Shown: positions 2,909 to 9,567 of the stretch, piece after piece
Numbering within the stretch: the first letter of the stretch is position 1
Layout of the letters: every line of letters starts with the position of its first letter
DNA from: Pedobacter psychrophilus
GTDB lineage: Bacteria > Bacteroidota > Bacteroidia > Sphingobacteriales > Sphingobacteriaceae
Assembly: GCF_001652725.1 (NCBI RefSeq)
Contig: NZ_LWHJ01000022.1
Coordinates: 1 to 64,000 of the forward strand
Direction of reading: 5' to 3'
Length of the DNA: 64,000 nucleotides
The notes under the pieces: generated by a model
Seen by the model: the letters and a program-made list of their open reading frames with translations, nothing else
Databases searched by the model: none
What the model was told of the DNA's origin: nothing
Position numbers and translations under genes: made by a program

Positions 2909-4375
2909 ATGCCAAAAGCAATAATAATAGGAGCCGGAATTGCAGGGATAGCAACTGCTATAAGATTGGCAATTGATAATTACGAAGTTTCTGTATTTGA
3001 AGCAAATGATTATCCGGGCGGTAAATTATCTCAGTTTAATAAACAGGGTTATCGTTTTGATGCCGGACCAAGTTTGTTTACCATGCCGCAATACGTAGAT
3101 AAACTTTTTAATTTGGCAGGTAAAAAGCCCTCAGATTATTTTGAGTACGAAAAATTAGAAGAGGTTTGTCGGTATTTTTGGGATGATAAAACACATTTAA
3201 CAGCTTACGCCGATATTGATAAATTTGCAAAAGAAATAGAAAAAAACACCCAATCTACTCAACAAGAAATTAACACGTTTTTAAAGAAAAGCGAAACTAT
3301 TTATGATGTCACTCATGAAGTTTTTTTAGAAAAATCGCTTCATCTTTTAAATACTTACACAAACGTAAACACGGCAAAATCCTTTTTAAGATTTGGAGAA
3401 ATTGATGCTTTTAGAACGATGGCAAAAGCAAATCAATCTTTTTTTACCGATGCAAAAATGGTACAATATGCTAACAGGTTTGCTACTTATAATGGTTCAA
3501 ACCCTTATCAAGCTCCGGCAACTTTAAATGTTATCCCGCACTTAGAACAAAATTTTGGGGCATATTTCCCTAAAAATGGAATGTACGCTATAACCCAAAG
3601 CCTGGTAAAGTTAGCAGAAGATTTAGGCGTAAAATTTTATTATAAAAAAAAGGTTGATGAGATTTTAGTCGAAAATAAAAAGGTTAAGGGCATTAAAATA
3701 AATAGTGAAATTATTGAGGCGGATGTAGTTGCATCAAATATTGATGTTTATTTTACCTATAAAAAATTGCTAAAAGATGAAGCCCAACCGCAAAAAATAT
3801 TGAAACAAGAACGCTCTAGCTCTGCTTTGATTTTTTATTGGGGAATAAAGAAAGAATTCCCTCAATTGGGATTGCATAACATCTTTTTTAGTGATAATTA
3901 TAAAGATGAATTTAATCATCTCTTTAAAAGCAAAACCATTTTTAACGATCCAACAGTTTACATCAACATTAGCTCAAAATTTAAAAAAGACGATGCGCCA
4001 AGTGGTTGTGAAAACTGGTTTACCATGATTAATGTCCCTAACAACATTGGACAAAATTGGGAGGTTTTTAAAACCGAAGCAAGGGCAAACATCATAAAAA
4101 AGCTAAATAAAAATTTAGGAATTGATTTAGAAAGTTTAATTGAAACCGAGGAAGTTTTGGACCCTGTTTTAATTGAATCAAAAACTTCATCTTATCGAGG
4201 TTCGCTTTACGGAACAAGTTCTAACGGAAAGTTTGCCGCTTTTTTACGCCATGCTAATTTCACCAAAAAAATAAAAAATCTGTATTTTGTTGGTGGCAGC
4301 GTTCATCCCGGAGGTGGAATTCCGTTGGCTTTATTATCTGCAAAAATTGTTGCAGATATCATAAAAAACGAATGA
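2909..4375 (+). CDS. crtD: Phytoene desaturase-family oxidoreductase (CrtI/CrtD type)
   Basis: FAD-dependent carotenoid desaturase of the CrtI superfamily, 488 aa. The dinucleotide-binding motif GAGIAG is at residues 8-13, followed by a PGGK segment and the FDAGPSLFTMP region of the family. The C-terminal FVGGSVHPGGGIPLALLSAKI signature contacts FAD. Sequence alone does not separate CrtI from CrtD (1'-hydroxycarotenoid 3',4'-desaturase). I lean to CrtD because the gene sits with a CruF-type hydratase and a glycosyltransferase, and no phytoene synthase or cyclase is present. The ATG at 2909 is preferred over a TTG at 2900 because it places the FAD motif at the usual distance. It heads a tight run of plus-strand genes. 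Confidence 0.8.
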   Translation: MPKAIIIGAGIAGIATAIRLAIDNYEVSVFEANDYPGGKLSQFNKQGYRFDAGPSLFTMPQYVDKLFNLAGKKPSDYFEYEKLEEVCRYFWDDKTHLTAYADIDKFAKEIEKNTQSTQQEINTFLKKSETIYDVTHEVFLEKSLHLLNTYTNVNTAKSFLRFGEIDAFRTMAKANQSFFTDAKMVQYANRFATYNGSNPYQAPATLNVIPHLEQNFGAYFPKNGMYAITQSLVKLAEDLGVKFYYKKKVDEILVENKKVKGIKINSEIIEADVVASNIDVYFTYKKLLKDEAQPQKILKQERSSSALIFYWGIKKEFPQLGLHNIFFSDNYKDEFNHLFKSKTIFNDPTVYINISSKFKKDDAPSGCENWFTMINVPNNIGQNWEVFKTEARANIIKKLNKNLGIDLESLIETEEVLDPVLIESKTSSYRGSLYGTSSNGKFAAFLRHANFTKKIKNLYFVGGSVHPGGGIPLALLSAKIVADIIKNE

Positions 4376-4399
4376 TTAAATTAGCTGTTCAGTAAAAAC

Positions 4400-5023
4400 A
4401 TGATAGAACCTAAATCAAATAAATTAATTCACGGTTTCTTTTCCTGGTACATCAGCCATATCATTGGTTCTGATTTTGAAAAGTTTGAGTTTAATAAAGA
4501 AAAATTTGATGCAGATAAATCTATTTTGTTGTTATCCAATCATTTTAGTTGGTGGGACGGTTTTATCATCTTTCATCTTAATAAAATATATTTCAAAAAA
4601 CATTTTCATGTAATGGTTTTAGAAGATACACTTAAAGAAGTAAAATTTTTGCCATATATGGGATGTTTCAGCATTCAAAAAAATGCAAAAAGCTTAATCC
4701 AATCTCTAGATTACGCTGCAAAATTATTAGATAATCCAAAAAATCTGGTCTTAATTTTTCCTCAGGGTGAGTTGCATTCTTCTCATGTAAGTTCGGTCGC
4801 TTTTGAAAAAGGAGTAGGAAAAATCATCAGCTCGTCGCAAAAGAAATTTCAGTATATTTTTGCTGCTGTCCTAACTGATTATTTTAATTTCAGAAAACCG
4901 AGCATCAAAATATCGTTAGAAAACTGGGAAGCACAAGAATACAGCAGCTTACAAGTCATAAAAAGTGCTTATAACAAGCATTATGAAAAATCGTTAAAAG
5001 AGCAATCTGAAATTAAGGTTTAA
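4400..5023 (+). CDS. PlsC-like acyltransferase, candidate carotenoid glycoside acyltransferase
   Basis: Protein of the lysophospholipid acyltransferase (PlsC) superfamily, 207 aa. The catalytic HX4D motif is visible as NHFSWWD (His48, Asp53), and FPQGE at 120-124 corresponds to the third acyltransferase block. No signal peptide is seen; it is probably a peripheral inner-membrane enzyme. It lies 24 bp after the desaturase and 2 bp before the glycosyltransferase. That suggests it acylates the sugar of a glycosylated carotenoid, as CruD is reported to do in green sulfur bacteria. The function is inferred from context; a general phospholipid role is the alternative. Confidence 0.75.
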   Translation: MIEPKSNKLIHGFFSWYISHIIGSDFEKFEFNKEKFDADKSILLLSNHFSWWDGFIIFHLNKIYFKKHFHVMVLEDTLKEVKFLPYMGCFSIQKNAKSLIQSLDYAAKLLDNPKNLVLIFPQGELHSSHVSSVAFEKGVGKIISSSQKKFQYIFAAVLTDYFNFRKPSIKISLENWEAQEYSSLQVIKSAYNKHYEKSLKEQSEIKV

Positions 5024-5025
5024 GC

Positions 5026-6120
5026 ATGATTTACTTCTTTTACATTATATTTTTCTTTTTGATTTTGCGCTTTACGGTTACGCTTTTTAACTTTATTTCC
5101 AATCCAAAATTAACCCATTCTCCAAAAAATTATATGGATTTAGTTTCCATTTTAATTCCCGCCAGAAACGAAGAAGAGAATATTTTAATGCTTTTAAACT
5201 CTATTAAATCGCAAGATTATTATAACATAGAAGTAATTGTTTTAGATGATAATTCTGATGATGAAACTTATCAAATAGTAAATGAATTTTGCCAAACAGA
5301 CAATCGTTTTAAAATAATTAAAGGAGAACCTTTACCACAAGGCTGGTTAGGTAAAAATTATGCTTGTTATCAATTAGCGAAGCAAGCCAAGGGCGATTTT
5401 CTGTTATTTTTAGATGCTGATGAAATGGTAAAGGATGGCTTGATTAATAATTCTTTATACCGAATGCAAATTGGCAAACTCAGTTTATTGAGTTTGTTTA
5501 CCAACCAAATTACCAAAACTTTTGGCGAAAAAGCAGTAGTACCGTTAATGCATTATTTGTTATTGAATTTGTTGCCTTTAAGATTGGTAAAATTGTCAAA
5601 ATTGCCTTCTCTATCTGCTGCAAGTGGACAATTTATGCTATTTCGAGCTCAGGATTATCATCAAAACCAATGGCATAAACAAGTAAAAGCCAAAGTTGTA
5701 GAAGATATCGAGATTATGAAATTAGTTAAAGAGAACAAGCTAAATGGCGAAGCTTTATTGGCTAACGGTTATATTTATTGTAGGATGTATAAGAGCTATA
5801 AAGAAAGCATTGAAGGGTTCAGTAAAAATCTTTTATCGGGTTTTGGTAATAGCATTTTTGGCCTTTTAGTTTATCTTTTCTTGGTAGTTTTTGGACCAAT
5901 TTTCATCTTATTTTTTCTCAATTTTCAGCTATTTTATTTTGCAATAACTTTAATTATTTTTAGCCGATTGATGATTTCTTATTTATCGGGACAAAATGTT
6001 TTAATGAATATCATTTTTCACATTTTACAAATGATTAATTTATTGGTAATCGCAACCTTATCCATAAAAAAATCCTTAAGCAAAACCTTATACTGGAAAG
6101 GCAGAACGATACATACATGA
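5026..6120 (+). CDS. Family 2 glycosyltransferase, candidate carotenoid glycosyltransferase (CruC-like)
   Basis: Membrane-anchored GT-A glycosyltransferase of 364 aa. An N-terminal membrane segment is followed by SILIPARNEEEN, DDNSDD (74-79) and the metal-binding DAD (130-132). A VEDIE acceptor/catalytic block follows, then three or four C-terminal membrane helices. The C-terminus ends in WKGRTIHT, like the integral-membrane family 2 enzymes found with carotenoid genes. It starts 2 bp after the acyltransferase, and its stop overlaps the next start by 4 bp (ATGA), so the genes are translationally coupled. The likely role is transfer of a hexose to the tertiary 1'-hydroxyl made by the hydratase. 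The sugar donor cannot be told from sequence. Confidence 0.8.
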   Translation: MIYFFYIIFFFLILRFTVTLFNFISNPKLTHSPKNYMDLVSILIPARNEEENILMLLNSIKSQDYYNIEVIVLDDNSDDETYQIVNEFCQTDNRFKIIKGEPLPQGWLGKNYACYQLAKQAKGDFLLFLDADEMVKDGLINNSLYRMQIGKLSLLSLFTNQITKTFGEKAVVPLMHYLLLNLLPLRLVKLSKLPSLSAASGQFMLFRAQDYHQNQWHKQVKAKVVEDIEIMKLVKENKLNGEALLANGYIYCRMYKSYKESIEGFSKNLLSGFGNSIFGLLVYLFLVVFGPIFILFFLNFQLFYFAITLIIFSRLMISYLSGQNVLMNIIFHILQMINLLVIATLSIKKSLSKTLYWKGRTIHT

Positions 6121-6758
6121 AATATTTAGAAAAAACAGCCTTATCAAGAATTTTCATTATCATTTTCCATTTGGTAGGTTTTATTGGCTTTTCATTACCA
6201 CAATACCACGATTTTTTCTTGTCTTTTGTACCCTTTCATTTGCTTTTAATGGCTGGCATTTTATTGGCTAACCAAAAAGAGTTTAACAAAAATTTTTGGT
6301 CGGCATTGGTATTTGTTTACGTCGGCGGATTTTTAGTAGAAGTTGTTGGCGTTTCATCAGGAGCAGTTTTTGGAGTTTATCATTATGGTGAAACATTGGG
6401 AATAAAGTTAGCCAATGTCCCATTATTGATTGGCGTAAACTGGTTTATCATCGTTTTTTGTGTTGGTGCTGTTTTAAAGAAATATCTGAAACATCAAAGG
6501 ACTTTGAAAGCAGCAATTGGTGCGGTAATATTAGTTGTTTTAGATTTTTTAATTGAGCCAGTTGCAGTAAGGTTTGATTATTGGAGTTGGGAGAACAGCG
6601 AAATTCCATTACAAAATTTTATTGCATGGTTTTTTGTGGCCTTTGTTTTATTAAGAGTCTACTATGAGTTAGAATTTAGAAAGAGTAATCCTGTTGCACT
6701 AACTTTGATAATCTGTCAATTTCTATTTTTCTTAGGGCTTAATCTTACCGTTATCTGA
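6117..6758 (+). CDS. cruF: CruF-type carotenoid 1',2'-hydratase
   Basis: Integral membrane protein (213 aa, about six or seven helices) of the CruF family. It adds water across the 1',2' double bond of the open psi-end of gamma-carotene-type carotenoids. Diagnostic segments are EVVGVSSGAVFGVYHYG, LIGVNW, the acidic DFLIEPVAVRFDYWSW and IPLQNFIAWF, with the conserved Glu and Asp residues in place. The start ATG overlaps the glycosyltransferase stop by 4 bp. CruF makes the tertiary hydroxyl that is the natural acceptor for the neighbouring glycosyltransferase. This is the strongest evidence that the cluster makes a monocyclic, end-modified carotenoid. Confidence 0.88.
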   Translation: MKYLEKTALSRIFIIIFHLVGFIGFSLPQYHDFFLSFVPFHLLLMAGILLANQKEFNKNFWSALVFVYVGGFLVEVVGVSSGAVFGVYHYGETLGIKLANVPLLIGVNWFIIVFCVGAVLKKYLKHQRTLKAAIGAVILVVLDFLIEPVAVRFDYWSWENSEIPLQNFIAWFFVAFVLLRVYYELEFRKSNPVALTLIICQFLFFLGLNLTVI

Positions 6759-6770
6759 CTAAATTTTTTA

Positions 6771-6778
6771 TATTTTTG
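6771..6778 (+). promoter_or_regulatory. Candidate -7 element for ispH
   Basis: TATTTTTG matches TAnnTTTG and ends 17 bp before the ispH ATG. It could give ispH its own transcript within the carotenoid cluster. Confidence 0.4.
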
Positions 6779-6795
6779 TAGGTAATTATCATCAC

Positions 6796-7644
6796 ATGGA
6801 ATATAATTTAAAAGTTACCATAGATCAAGATTCCGGCTTCTGCTTTGGTGTTGTTTATGCCATAGATATGGCCGAAGAAATTTTGGAACAAGAAGGTTAT
6901 CTTTATTGCCTGGGCGATATTGTACATAATGATGAGGAAGTTATCCGCTTAAAAGCAAAAGGTTTAAAAATTATTGATAACGATGATTTAAAAACTTTAC
7001 ATAACGAAAAAGTACTGATTAGGGCGCATGGCGAAGCGCCAGAAACTTACAAAGTAGCTTTAGAAAATAATATTACGTTGATAGATGCTTCTTGTCCGGT
7101 AGTTTTAAAACTGCAAAATCGCATAAAAACTACTCATGATGCTAAAGAACCAGTCGTAATTTTTGGCAAACATGGCCATGCAGAAGTGATTGGTTTGCAA
7201 GGGCAAACTAATAATGAAGCCATCGTTTTTCAGGATATTGCAGAGCTAGATAATGTTGAGTTGCCTAAAACATTCACTTTGTATAGCCAAACCACTAAAT
7301 CTACTGAGAAGTTTTACGACATAAAAAATCAATTAATAGATCGTGGTTATGAGATTAAAGCAAACGATACAATTTGCCGTCAGGTTTCTAACAGAGATAA
7401 AGAATTGCCGAAATTTGTAAAGAACTTCGACAAAATAATTTTTGTGTCTGGCAAAAAATCATCCAACGGTAAAGTACTTTACGAAGTTTGCAGAAAGCAT
7501 AATCCAGCTACTTTTTTTATCAGCAAACCAAACGATTTAGAGAAAGCAATGTTTAATGAAGGGGATAAGATTGGGATTTGTGGCGCAACATCAACCCCAA
7601 TGTGGTTAATGGAACAAGTGAAAGAGCAACTTGAAATGTATTAA
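6796..7644 (+). CDS. ispH: 4-hydroxy-3-methylbut-2-enyl diphosphate reductase IspH
   Basis: Last enzyme of the MEP (non-mevalonate) pathway; it reduces HMBPP to IPP and DMAPP with an oxygen-sensitive [4Fe-4S] cluster in the cytoplasm. The three cluster cysteines are Cys16 (GFCFGV), Cys100 (DASCPVV) and Cys194 (TICRQV). The substrate-binding His and Glu segments (GDIVHN, RAHGEAP, FGKHGHAE) are intact. At 282 aa it is a normal short-form IspH. It lies 37 bp after cruF on the same strand, so supply of C5 units is genetically linked to carotenoid tailoring. A dispersed intergenic repeat follows. Confidence 0.95.
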   Translation: MEYNLKVTIDQDSGFCFGVVYAIDMAEEILEQEGYLYCLGDIVHNDEEVIRLKAKGLKIIDNDDLKTLHNEKVLIRAHGEAPETYKVALENNITLIDASCPVVLKLQNRIKTTHDAKEPVVIFGKHGHAEVIGLQGQTNNEAIVFQDIAELDNVELPKTFTLYSQTTKSTEKFYDIKNQLIDRGYEIKANDTICRQVSNRDKELPKFVKNFDKIIFVSGKKSSNGKVLYEVCRKHNPATFFISKPNDLEKAMFNEGDKIGICGATSTPMWLMEQVKEQLEMY

Positions 7645-7712
7645 ATTGATAATATCAATTCAATATTTATTTTTTAAAAATATAAAGGATTAATAAACGC
7701 TGTTAAAAATAT

Positions 7713-7830
7713 TTTTGGCGTTCCCAATCCGCTAGCTAGCGGATGGGTCGGGCTTTTCACTATATCTTTTTTGTTCCCCTTACACATTTTCCGAGGCACA
7801 AAAAAGGATGCCGTTCCAATCCCTAACGCA
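7713..7830 (+). repeat. Dispersed intergenic repeat, copy A
   Basis: First of four copies of a family that starts GGCG, has a central GGGCTTT-CACTATATCTTTT segment and ends with GGATGCCG, TTCCAATCCC and TAACGC. The other copies are at 25878, 33675 and 48786. This copy contains an extra perfect 18-bp palindrome, ATCCGCTAGCTAGCGGAT, at 7727-7744. It lies between ispH and crtW. Confidence 0.8.
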
Positions 7831-7865
7831 CCTATAAAACCTAAGAAAACTTTATAAAACATCAA

Positions 7866-8558
7866 TTGAAAAACTCAAAGGGAACATACATAGCAATAAT
7901 CATCATCACTTTGTGGATGGTTAGCATTGTAATATTGATGAAAACTAATTTGAGTTTTACAAATCCTTTATTATATATTTTCGTTTTAATTCAAATGCAT
8001 CTTTATACTGGACTTTTTATCACGGCTCATGATGCAATGCATGGTACAATTGCCCCAAAAAATCCAAAACTAAATATCGCCTTAGGGCAAATTTGTACAG
8101 CTTTATACGCATTGTTTCCCTTAAAAAATCTCCACTCCAAACACCATCAACATCATGATTTTGTACACACCAAAAATGATCCTGATTATCATGAAGGGAA
8201 TTTTTTTGTTTGGTATTTTAACTTTATTAAACAATACATTACTTGGTGGCAAATTTTAGCAATGGCAATTATTTATAATATTCTTAAAATTTATATTCCA
8301 GAAAAAAACCTAGTTCTCTTTTGGGTGTTACCCTCTTTGTTAAGCACATTACAGTTATTTTATTTTGGTACATATTTGCCGCATAAAGGCGAGCATCAAA
8401 ATAAATATCAATCTAAAACACAAGATAAAAACCATATTTGGGCATTTTTTAGCTGCTATTTTTTCGGCTATCATTATGAACATCATGATTCGCCTGGCAC
8501 ACCTTGGTGGCGTTTATGGCAAGTAAAAGAACAAAGCATCAATACAAAAAATGGGTAA
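7866..8558 (+). CDS. crtW: Beta-carotene ketolase, CrtW type
   Basis: Membrane di-iron oxygenase (230 aa) that introduces a 4-keto group on a beta-ionone ring. The histidine boxes of the fatty-acid-hydroxylase fold are present: HDAMHG near residue 55, HSKHHQHH near 90, and GYHYEHH near 203, followed by PWWRLW as in CrtW proteins. Four hydrophobic helices are visible. The start is a TTG at 7866, giving MKNSKGTYIAIIII, which fits family N-termini; the next ATG (codon 18) would cut the first helix. The 3' end overlaps hemH by 8 bp. CrtZ-type hydroxylation is less likely because of the length and the C-terminal box. Confidence 0.85.
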   Translation: MKNSKGTYIAIIIITLWMVSIVILMKTNLSFTNPLLYIFVLIQMHLYTGLFITAHDAMHGTIAPKNPKLNIALGQICTALYALFPLKNLHSKHHQHHDFVHTKNDPDYHEGNFFVWYFNFIKQYITWWQILAMAIIYNILKIYIPEKNLVLFWVLPSLLSTLQLFYFGTYLPHKGEHQNKYQSKTQDKNHIWAFFSCYFFGYHYEHHDSPGTPWWRLWQVKEQSINTKNG

Positions 8559-9567
8559 AAAAGGAATTCTATTGGTAAATCTGGGCACTCCAGATAGTCC
8601 ATCTACTGCTGATGTAAGAAAATATCTGGACGAATTTTTAATGGACGAACGTGTAATTGATATCAATGCAATTGGTCGTACATTATTGGTTAAAGGAATT
8701 ATCGTTCCGTTTCGTGGACCAAAATCTGCTAAAATTTATAAAGAAATCTGGACAGACGCAGGTTCGCCTTTGTTAATAAATGGAAACAAAGTACATGAAG
8801 AAATTACAAAAAAATTAGGAGATGATTACATGGTAGAATTGGCCATGCGCTACCAAACTCCATCCATTCCAGATGCTTTAGAAAGATTTAAACAAGCTAA
8901 AGTTGATAGCATAAAAGTAGTTCCTTTATTTCCTCAATATGCTTCTGCATCTACAGGTTCTGTACATCAATTGGTAATGGAAATTGTAAGCAAATGGCAG
9001 GCAATCCCTCCAATTAGTTTCGTAAATAGTTATTATGATCATCCTGGAATGATTAAGGTTTTTGCAGATAATGCTCGTAAACATCTAGATCAAAAATGGG
9101 ATCATATTTTATTCAGTTTCCACGGCATCCCACAAAGGCAAATGAGAAAAGCAGATGTTTCTGGCGAGCATTGCTTAAAAGTAGAAAACTGTTGCAGTGT
9201 GCTAACAGAAAATAATAAATACTGCTATTCGGCACAATGCCACCAAACCGCTAGATTAATTTCTGACGAATTAGGTTTAAAAAAGGAAGATTTTACCATT
9301 TGCTATCAATCCCGTTTAGGAAATGATCCCTGGATGAAACCTTATACCTCAGATATTTTAAAAGAATTAGCTGCAAAAGGAGCAAAGCGTTTACTGGTTT
9401 TATGTCCCGCTTTTGTGTCTGATTGTTTAGAAACTTTGTATGAAATTAGTTTTGAATACCAAGAAGAATTTGTGGAATTAGGAGGAGAAAAAATACAATT
9501 GGTAGAAAGCTTGAATGATAATCCAGCCTGGATTGATGCGTTAGAGGATATTATTTTGAATAAATAA
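8551..9567 (+). CDS. hemH: Ferrochelatase HemH
   Basis: Inserts Fe2+ into protoporphyrin IX to form protoheme; 338 aa. The N-terminal LLVNLGTPDSP signature and the catalytic His191 in FSFHGIPQR are present, as is the later SRLGNDPWMKP region. A cysteine-rich stretch (Cys208, 214, 215, 225, 230) lies just after the active-site His. Some ferrochelatases bind a [2Fe-2S] cluster, and this stretch may bind metal, but the ligands are not proven. The start codon lies inside the end of crtW (8-bp overlap), so translation is probably coupled. A strong hairpin follows the stop. Confidence 0.95.
   Translation: MGKKGILLVNLGTPDSPSTADVRKYLDEFLMDERVIDINAIGRTLLVKGIIVPFRGPKSAKIYKEIWTDAGSPLLINGNKVHEEITKKLGDDYMVELAMRYQTPSIPDALERFKQAKVDSIKVVPLFPQYASASTGSVHQLVMEIVSKWQAIPPISFVNSYYDHPGMIKVFADNARKHLDQKWDHILFSFHGIPQRQMRKADVSGEHCLKVENCCSVLTENNKYCYSAQCHQTARLISDELGLKKEDFTICYQSRLGNDPWMKPYTSDILKELAAKGAKRLLVLCPAFVSDCLETLYEISFEYQEEFVELGGEKIQLVESLNDNPAWIDALEDIILNK

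Follow-up and report, generated by a model that had tools for sequence, protein, structure and literature searches.

The window analysed here, the first 64 kb of contig C22 of Pedobacter psychrophilus (a 4.0-Mb genome in 33 contigs), carries a run of seven genes in which an acyltransferase (AT) and a glycosyltransferase (GT) lie between the carotenoid genes crtD and cruF. This block is predicted to finish the psi end of a carotenoid, and its likeliest product, judged from the genes present, is probably an acylated flexixanthin glycoside (3-hydroxy-4-keto). A pathway of this kind is already known; the unexpected part is that AT is kept beside a dead GT in Pedobacter species without carotenoid-tailoring genes. 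All seven open reading frames are intact and follow one another in the order crtD-AT-GT-cruF-ispH-crtW-hemH on the + strand:

2909..4375, + strand: crtD, 1-hydroxycarotenoid 3,4-desaturase (ATG start, with an in-frame TTG at 2900; NF042421, 654 bits against a cut-off of 500)
4400..5023, + strand: AT, CruD-type acyltransferase, predicted to acylate the carotenoid sugar (PF01553, 36.7 bits against a cut-off of 23; motifs NHFSWWDGF and FPQG)
5026..6120, + strand: GT, CruC-type family 2 glycosyltransferase, predicted to glycosylate the 1'-hydroxyl (PF00535, 92.7 bits against a cut-off of 23.3)
6117..6758, + strand: cruF, carotenoid 1',2'-hydratase (PF04240, 101 bits against a cut-off of 25)
6796..7644, + strand: ispH, isoprenoid precursor enzyme, a conserved neighbour that is probably not pathway-specific (NF002187, 357 bits against a cut-off of 276)
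7866..8558, + strand: crtW, 4-ketolase (TTG start; NF045690, 260 bits, under the cut-off of 350)
8551..9567, + strand: hemH, ferrochelatase, a neighbour outside the pathway (TIGR00109, 271 bits against a cut-off of 124.6)

The first four genes are tightly packed, with 24 bp between crtD and AT, 2 bp between AT and GT, and a 4-bp overlap of GT and cruF; further downstream, 37 bp separate cruF from ispH and 221 bp separate ispH from crtW, and crtW overlaps hemH by 8 bp. An earlier reading made from the letters of this stretch (the sequence-only reading) had described the same run and the same tight junctions, which the intact reading frames and family scores confirm. The window GT contains the motifs PARNEE, DAD, ED and WKGR and passes PF00535, despite falling under all NCBIfam cut-offs; similarly, the window CruF passes PF04240 and falls under the NCBIfam CruF cut-offs, while NF045690 is by far the best match of CrtW, though below its cut-off. 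Hydropathy places one N-terminal and three C-terminal hydrophobic stretches in the window GT, with a weaker one at 170, and the same kind of scan finds no membrane-like segment in the window AT (maximum 1.05), to which the AT of Pedobacter segetis is 89% identical. Promoter-like sites (33 against a shuffle mean of 32.3) and terminator-like sites (4 against 4.4) occur as often as in shuffled sequence, and no operon boundary is claimed.

The sequence-only reading had expected phytoene synthase and the cyclase to lie elsewhere, and this is borne out by separate contig C11, which carries crtI (over the NF058655 cut-off), crtB, a protein without a Pfam match, and the fused cyclase gene crtYcd with two PF18916 stretches. 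Contig C31 encodes a 145-residue hydroxylase (PF04116), which we take to be CrtZ from its size and histidine motifs and which no NCBIfam model matched. The genome thus encodes phytoene synthase, desaturase, cyclase, 4-ketolase, 1'-hydratase, CrtD, GT and AT, a salinixanthin-type gene complement. In terms of flexixanthin genes, crtB, crtI, crtYcd, crtD, crtW, a crtZ-like gene and cruF are all present; the search covered every one of the set but crtE, the remaining gene.

From the presence, integrity and family of these genes, which are established, we infer the order of steps, the monocyclisation, the sugar, the acyl chain, the acceptor and the product. CrtB, CrtI and CrtYcd would supply a monocyclic precursor, the ring closure being ascribed to CrtYcd. 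CruF would hydrate the psi end to give a 1'-hydroxyl, after which CrtD would add the 3',4' double bond, and CrtW together with the C31 CrtZ would add a 4-keto group and a 3-hydroxyl to the ring to give flexixanthin. The CruC-type GT would then put a sugar on the 1'-hydroxyl, and the CruD-type AT would esterify the carotenoid sugar with a fatty acid; by our own arithmetic, the version with a hexose and a C15 acyl chain is C61H92O10, with a neutral mass of 984.67. The acylated, glycosylated, monocyclic 4-keto-carotenoid proposed earlier remains the best explanation of the locus. Its core, then modelled on salinixanthin, is more likely that of flexixanthin because the genome holds a CrtZ-like hydroxylase, and the predicted core is one hydroxyl away from the earlier guess. 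We reject ispH and hemH as parts of the pathway: both mostly stay beside GT at loci from which cruF and the other carotenoid genes are gone, and are therefore weak pathway evidence.

Among the open-access papers listed for these subjects, a body that leaves subscription papers mostly outside, none describes an acylated flexixanthin glycoside, whether for Pedobacter, Mucilaginibacter and relatives or otherwise, and none describes a block of this kind in Pedobacter. If the prediction is true, the membranes of Pedobacter, Mucilaginibacter and their relatives should commonly contain acylated flexixanthin glycosides as pigments.

Contig C11 shows further features. The protein between crtB and crtYcd (L002 11029-11556) has 175 residues, a signal-peptide-like start and no Pfam match, and is 31–38% identical across the carotenoid clusters in L042, L044, L046, L047 and L052. 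The same contig carries a run (L035 2925-7977) with a ketosynthase, a reductase, a PPTase-like protein, a hydrolase and a CruD-like paralog of AT, in the middle of which are two genes that, read from their translations, resemble a RES-Xre toxin-antitoxin pair.

By sequence, AT and GT are of the CruD and CruC type. Of 95 FMO-positive genomes, 92 contain a match to AT with E no higher than 1e-8, and all 12 that were tried with GT contain a match to it (E 1.1e-50 to 3.4e-65); kinship with green sulfur bacteria is judged here on FMO-positive genomes rather than on named CruC and CruD sequences. The motif NHxxWWDG is common to the window AT and the green sulfur ATs, and NHxxWWD is found in most carotenoid-linked ATs, the exceptions being NHHGFFD in Thermus and NHFSFWD in one Mucilaginibacter AT (L041). 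In the GT tree, the window GT belongs to a clade of Bacteroidota (99/92), which Thermus and Deinococcus adjoin (93/91), and the green sulfur GTs form a single clade. In the AT tree, deep forks are weak and the branches of the phospholipid enzyme PlsC are long, and the window AT joins the PlsC rows in no well-supported group.

Pairing of the two genes in carotenoid clusters extends to Thermus, Deinococcus, Bacillota and Alphaproteobacteria. The two are direct neighbours in carotenoid clusters on plasmid records of Cytobacillus, Thermus thermophilus, Palleronia and Azospirillum, and are one gene apart in a Deinococcus deserti cluster. The Cytobacillus cluster also holds crtI and a gene annotated as a carotenoid biosynthesis protein, and a Niallia carotenoid cluster contains AT-GT by our reading of its unannotated open reading frames. 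A direct search of plasmids with AT gave matches in Cytobacillus and Niallia only. In a Planococcus cluster, a proven carotenoid GT likewise stands next to a putative AT and to a gene with weak likeness to cruF (PMC8502411), and CruC is named in Thermomicrobium (PMC2615216).

The sequence-only reading had considered an acyltransferase and glycosyltransferase directly between crtD and cruF a distinctive arrangement, which is not borne out by related loci. Among the best 80 of at least 561 confirmed loci, a sample that leans to near relatives, 62 have AT, GT and cruF, and this recurrence argues that the run is not due to chance. In 21 of the 62, the nearest upstream query gene on the strand of AT is crtD, which in 15 of them is within 75 bases of the AT match. 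Nine of the 18 loci without cruF are from Pedobacter and the other nine are mostly short or cut stretches; L130 and L132, which have no cruF at the locus, have CruF elsewhere in the genome. Similarly, 13 of 18 AT regions (L036-L053) have GT adjoining AT, and 12 also have cruF within the cluster. L042, L044, L046 and L047, all of one other family, place crtB, the protein of no Pfam match, crtYcd, crtD, AT, GT, cruF and crtW in one cluster, with cruF and crtW 0.3–2.9 kb apart. In L038-L041 and other Mucilaginibacter-type loci, a second AT stands in tandem with the first; the three second ATs included in the tree fall (99/99) with ATs from fatty-acid-type gene clusters and not with the first AT.

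Across 251 genomes of the host family, GT and CruF occur together far more often than expected by chance. CruF is present in 136 genomes and a strong GT in 145, the latter being 157 genomes with a match minus 12 (identity at most 44% where listed) and including the partial GTs of G551 and G555. Both are present in 130 genomes, CruF only in 6, a strong GT only in 15 and neither in 100 (Fisher p 2e-45, with kinship ignored). We reject a strict dependence of GT retention on CruF, since 15 of the 145 strong-GT genomes are without CruF. Fourteen family genomes with a strong GT and no CruF (L134-L147) have GT mostly beside ispH and hemH; AT adjoins it in two of these loci (L143 and L146), and the ED motif is lost in L135-L137.

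Nine loci of Pedobacter (L081, L087, L099, L100, L103, L104, L105, L109 and L111) are devoid of all three of crtD, cruF and crtW. Each keeps, beside an intact AT, a GT reading frame (10618-11580 in L087) that is open over 299–321 residues and has none of the motifs PARNEE, LDD, GWLGKN, DAD, SGQ, ED and WKGR. In a comparison of 70 GTs, from which the truncated L062 and L066 are excluded, these motif-less GTs deviate at 46–59 of 91 near-invariant columns, and no Pfam match was found in the three of the nine that were scanned. CruF is absent genome-wide in all eight motif-less-GT genomes searched (all but L100), while each of 11 comparison genomes, namely L130 and ten whose locus has an intact GT, does have CruF. 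Pedobacter segetis and P. cryophilus are among the species with cruF, and P. caeni is among those that lost it. That GT has shed its catalytic residues at loci that also lost cruF counts as evidence, obtained with no mutant, that this GT acts on the product of CruF. Four of the nine ATs were placed in the tree and form one clade, and the nine loci may therefore represent a single loss event; three more CruF-less genomes beyond them (L150-L152) have similarly damaged GTs.

AT and the motif-less GT are both under purifying selection. By simple Nei-Gojobori estimates, which set five chosen, non-independent motif-less pairs (dS about 1 or more in four) against six low-dS intact pairs, dN/dS is 0.082–0.111 for the motif-less GT and 0.071–0.105 for intact GTs, and 0.027–0.049 for AT in the motif-less clade compared with 0.060–0.082 in the intact clade. 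The control genes shift likewise, with ispH at 0.018–0.026 and hemH at 0.007–0.030 in the motif-less clade and some intact pairs reaching 0.095 and 0.066; as such, the lower AT value may be a property of the lineage, and constraint is all that is claimed. The former catalytic part of GT has a pN/pS of 0.14–0.23 in three motif-less pairs against 0.10–0.13 in three intact pairs, a mild relaxation. A pseudogene is disfavoured, since the frame is open in nine species and dN/dS resembles that of intact GTs.

Identity to intact Pedobacter GTs is unevenly distributed along the motif-less protein. Its N-terminal helix is 79% identical, compared with 58% for more distant intact GTs, whereas identity is 40% in the former catalytic part and 42% in the C-terminal membrane part, for which those GTs have 63% and 51%. 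This helix pattern, together with an AT that has no membrane-like segment, leads us to suggest, tentatively, that AT and GT could work together at the membrane, the helix-free AT being anchored there by the N-terminal helix of GT. In the Pedobacter clade, GT would then be a dead anchor and the pair would be kept for another acylation, so that an unrecognised lipid-modifying pair would have arisen from a carotenoid-tailoring one. The retention of AT with a dead GT provides a concrete, testable case of possible enzyme repurposing, and the keeping of both genes hints at a second job.

Several observations weigh against the flexixanthin glycoside ester as the product of this block. The active-site motifs of AT are intact in all nine motif-less-GT loci, and phytoene synthase is absent in two of the eight motif-less-GT genomes searched. 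No match to phytoene synthase was found in nine of the 15 strong-GT, CruF-less genomes (one of these nine is only 60% complete), and six of the nine keep largely intact GT motifs, with deviations at 3–7 of the 91 near-invariant columns where cruF-positive GTs reach at most 4 in a leave-out test; the six could reflect recent pigment loss or a second substrate. A profile of AT scores one PlsC-like protein of the P. psychrophilus genome (E 7.9e-8) and the Thermus AT (E 3.6e-8) almost equally, so that kinship with the Thermus AT is not established by sequence. In addition, a second cyclase gene, crtY (PF05834), on contig C33 means that bicyclic carotenoids may be made too. Because GT persists without CruF in some genomes and AT alongside a motif-less GT in others, an exclusively carotenoid role is not established. 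These same exceptions are what an enzyme pair that makes a non-carotenoid glycolipid, or acylates some other lipid, and sits beside crtD and cruF by history only would leave behind: AT and the motif-less GT persist under purifying selection at the nine loci of Pedobacter that have none of crtD, cruF and crtW, and six genomes without CruF and phytoene synthase retain a GT with largely intact motifs. We nevertheless regard this explanation as unlikely, given the strong co-occurrence of GT with CruF, the loss of Pedobacter GT motifs where CruF is lost, the carotenoid-linked AT and GT genes of other phyla, and the absence of an observed AT beside GT in 12 of the 14 exception loci.

It is rather improbable that the carotenoid receives a sugar only and AT serves another lipid, an arrangement that would fit the nine Pedobacter loci that keep AT without a working GT and an AT sequence near enough to PlsC-type proteins for a profile match; AT adjoins GT in carotenoid clusters of several phyla, and deletion of the Methylobacterium AT led to loss of the acyl group (PMC10448405). 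That AT is the phospholipid PlsC of the host, placed here by chance, is highly improbable, its membership of the PF01553 superfamily notwithstanding. AT scores 24.2 bits with TIGR00530 against a cut-off of 102.95, and at E 1e-8 it finds only itself and one paralog in its own genome, where four other PF01553 genes besides this CruD-like paralog are over the cut-off. Two of these four have NHQSMYD and NHSSNLD where AT has NHFSWWD, and the other two have no motif of that form. On the score, the paralog search and the active-site motif we reject the identification with PlsC, with the caution that the AT profile matches one PlsC-like protein. The grouping with phospholipid PlsC enzymes that would have spoken against the sequence-only reading is not seen in any well-supported part of the AT tree, whose deep forks are weak, and acylation of a carotenoid sugar by AT, as part of the flexixanthin glycoside ester pathway, is the reading we prefer.

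The second cyclase gene lies in a setting of its own. At L034 4501-7467 on contig C33, a rhodopsin gene (PF01036), crtY and blh (PF15461; TIGR03753 over the cut-off) lie in this order on one strand. By our reading in proteorhodopsin numbering, the pump positions of rhodopsin helix C are D, T and E. Its best matches are the proteorhodopsins 9jov and 9jou (212 bits), compared with 90 bits for 3ddl. In alignments with proteorhodopsins, it carries Gly at a position occupied by Trp in 4jq6 and by Phe in green proteorhodopsin; Gly also stands there in 9jov and 9jou. The salinixanthin fenestration of xanthorhodopsin includes Gly156 (SrXR numbering; PMC13093654). A carotenoid antenna on the C33 rhodopsin is possible, and a rhodopsin with its own crtY and blh makes the question of such an antenna testable in the same organism.

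The predicted pathway shares its overall plan with several known systems. Green sulfur bacteria make chlorobactene glucoside laurate, and CruC and CruD are named in C. tepidum; there too, a monocyclic carotenoid is 1'-hydroxylated, glycosylated and acylated, with CrtC as the hydratase in place of the CruF found here (PMC6166724). In one FMO-positive genome (G106), AT at 0.91 Mb and GT at 1.89 Mb are about 0.97 Mb apart, in contrast to the adjoining genes of the window. The salinixanthin of Salinibacter and Rhodothermus is likewise a monocyclic 4-keto-carotenoid with an acylated sugar (PMC5822342, PMC2615216); CruC and CruD are named in R. marinus (PMC5822342), and CruF and CruD in Salinibacter (PMC2615216). 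R. marinus has a CrtO ketolase and an unlinked cruC, and no CruF was found in it (PMC5822342), whereas P. psychrophilus has CrtW, a linked cruF and a CrtZ-like gene, from which an extra 3-hydroxyl is predicted.

Thermus thermophilus, which makes thermozeaxanthins, has an adjacent AT and GT on pTT27 together with crtB, a cyclase-domain gene and crtI. Its GT is 35% identical to the window GT over 232 residues, its AT only 21% identical to the window AT over 95 residues, and its acceptor is zeaxanthin, unlike the acceptor predicted here. The Thermus products are glucoside esters of zeaxanthin, and both genes bear the names CruC and CruD in a metabolic model of strain HB27 (PMC4021367). In Methylobacterium extorquens, an adjacent GT and lysophospholipid-type AT (META1p3663/META1p3664) glucosylate and acylate a carotenoid; deletion of GT left the aglycone and deletion of AT abolished the acylated product (PMC10448405). 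The acceptor in that case is a C30 dicarboxylic carotenoid (PMC10448405), and the likeness is drawn from the description of the enzymes rather than from sequence comparison. A counterpart of the core pathway is that of flexixanthin in Algoriphagus, which uses the same crtB, crtI, crtYcd, crtD, crtW, crtZ and cruF (PMC10784355). The eight flexixanthin genes listed for Algoriphagus include neither GT nor AT, and the pigments reported are free carotenoids (PMC10784355). P. psychrophilus adds GT and AT to the flexixanthin gene set, and a flexixanthin glycoside ester is therefore the predicted product.

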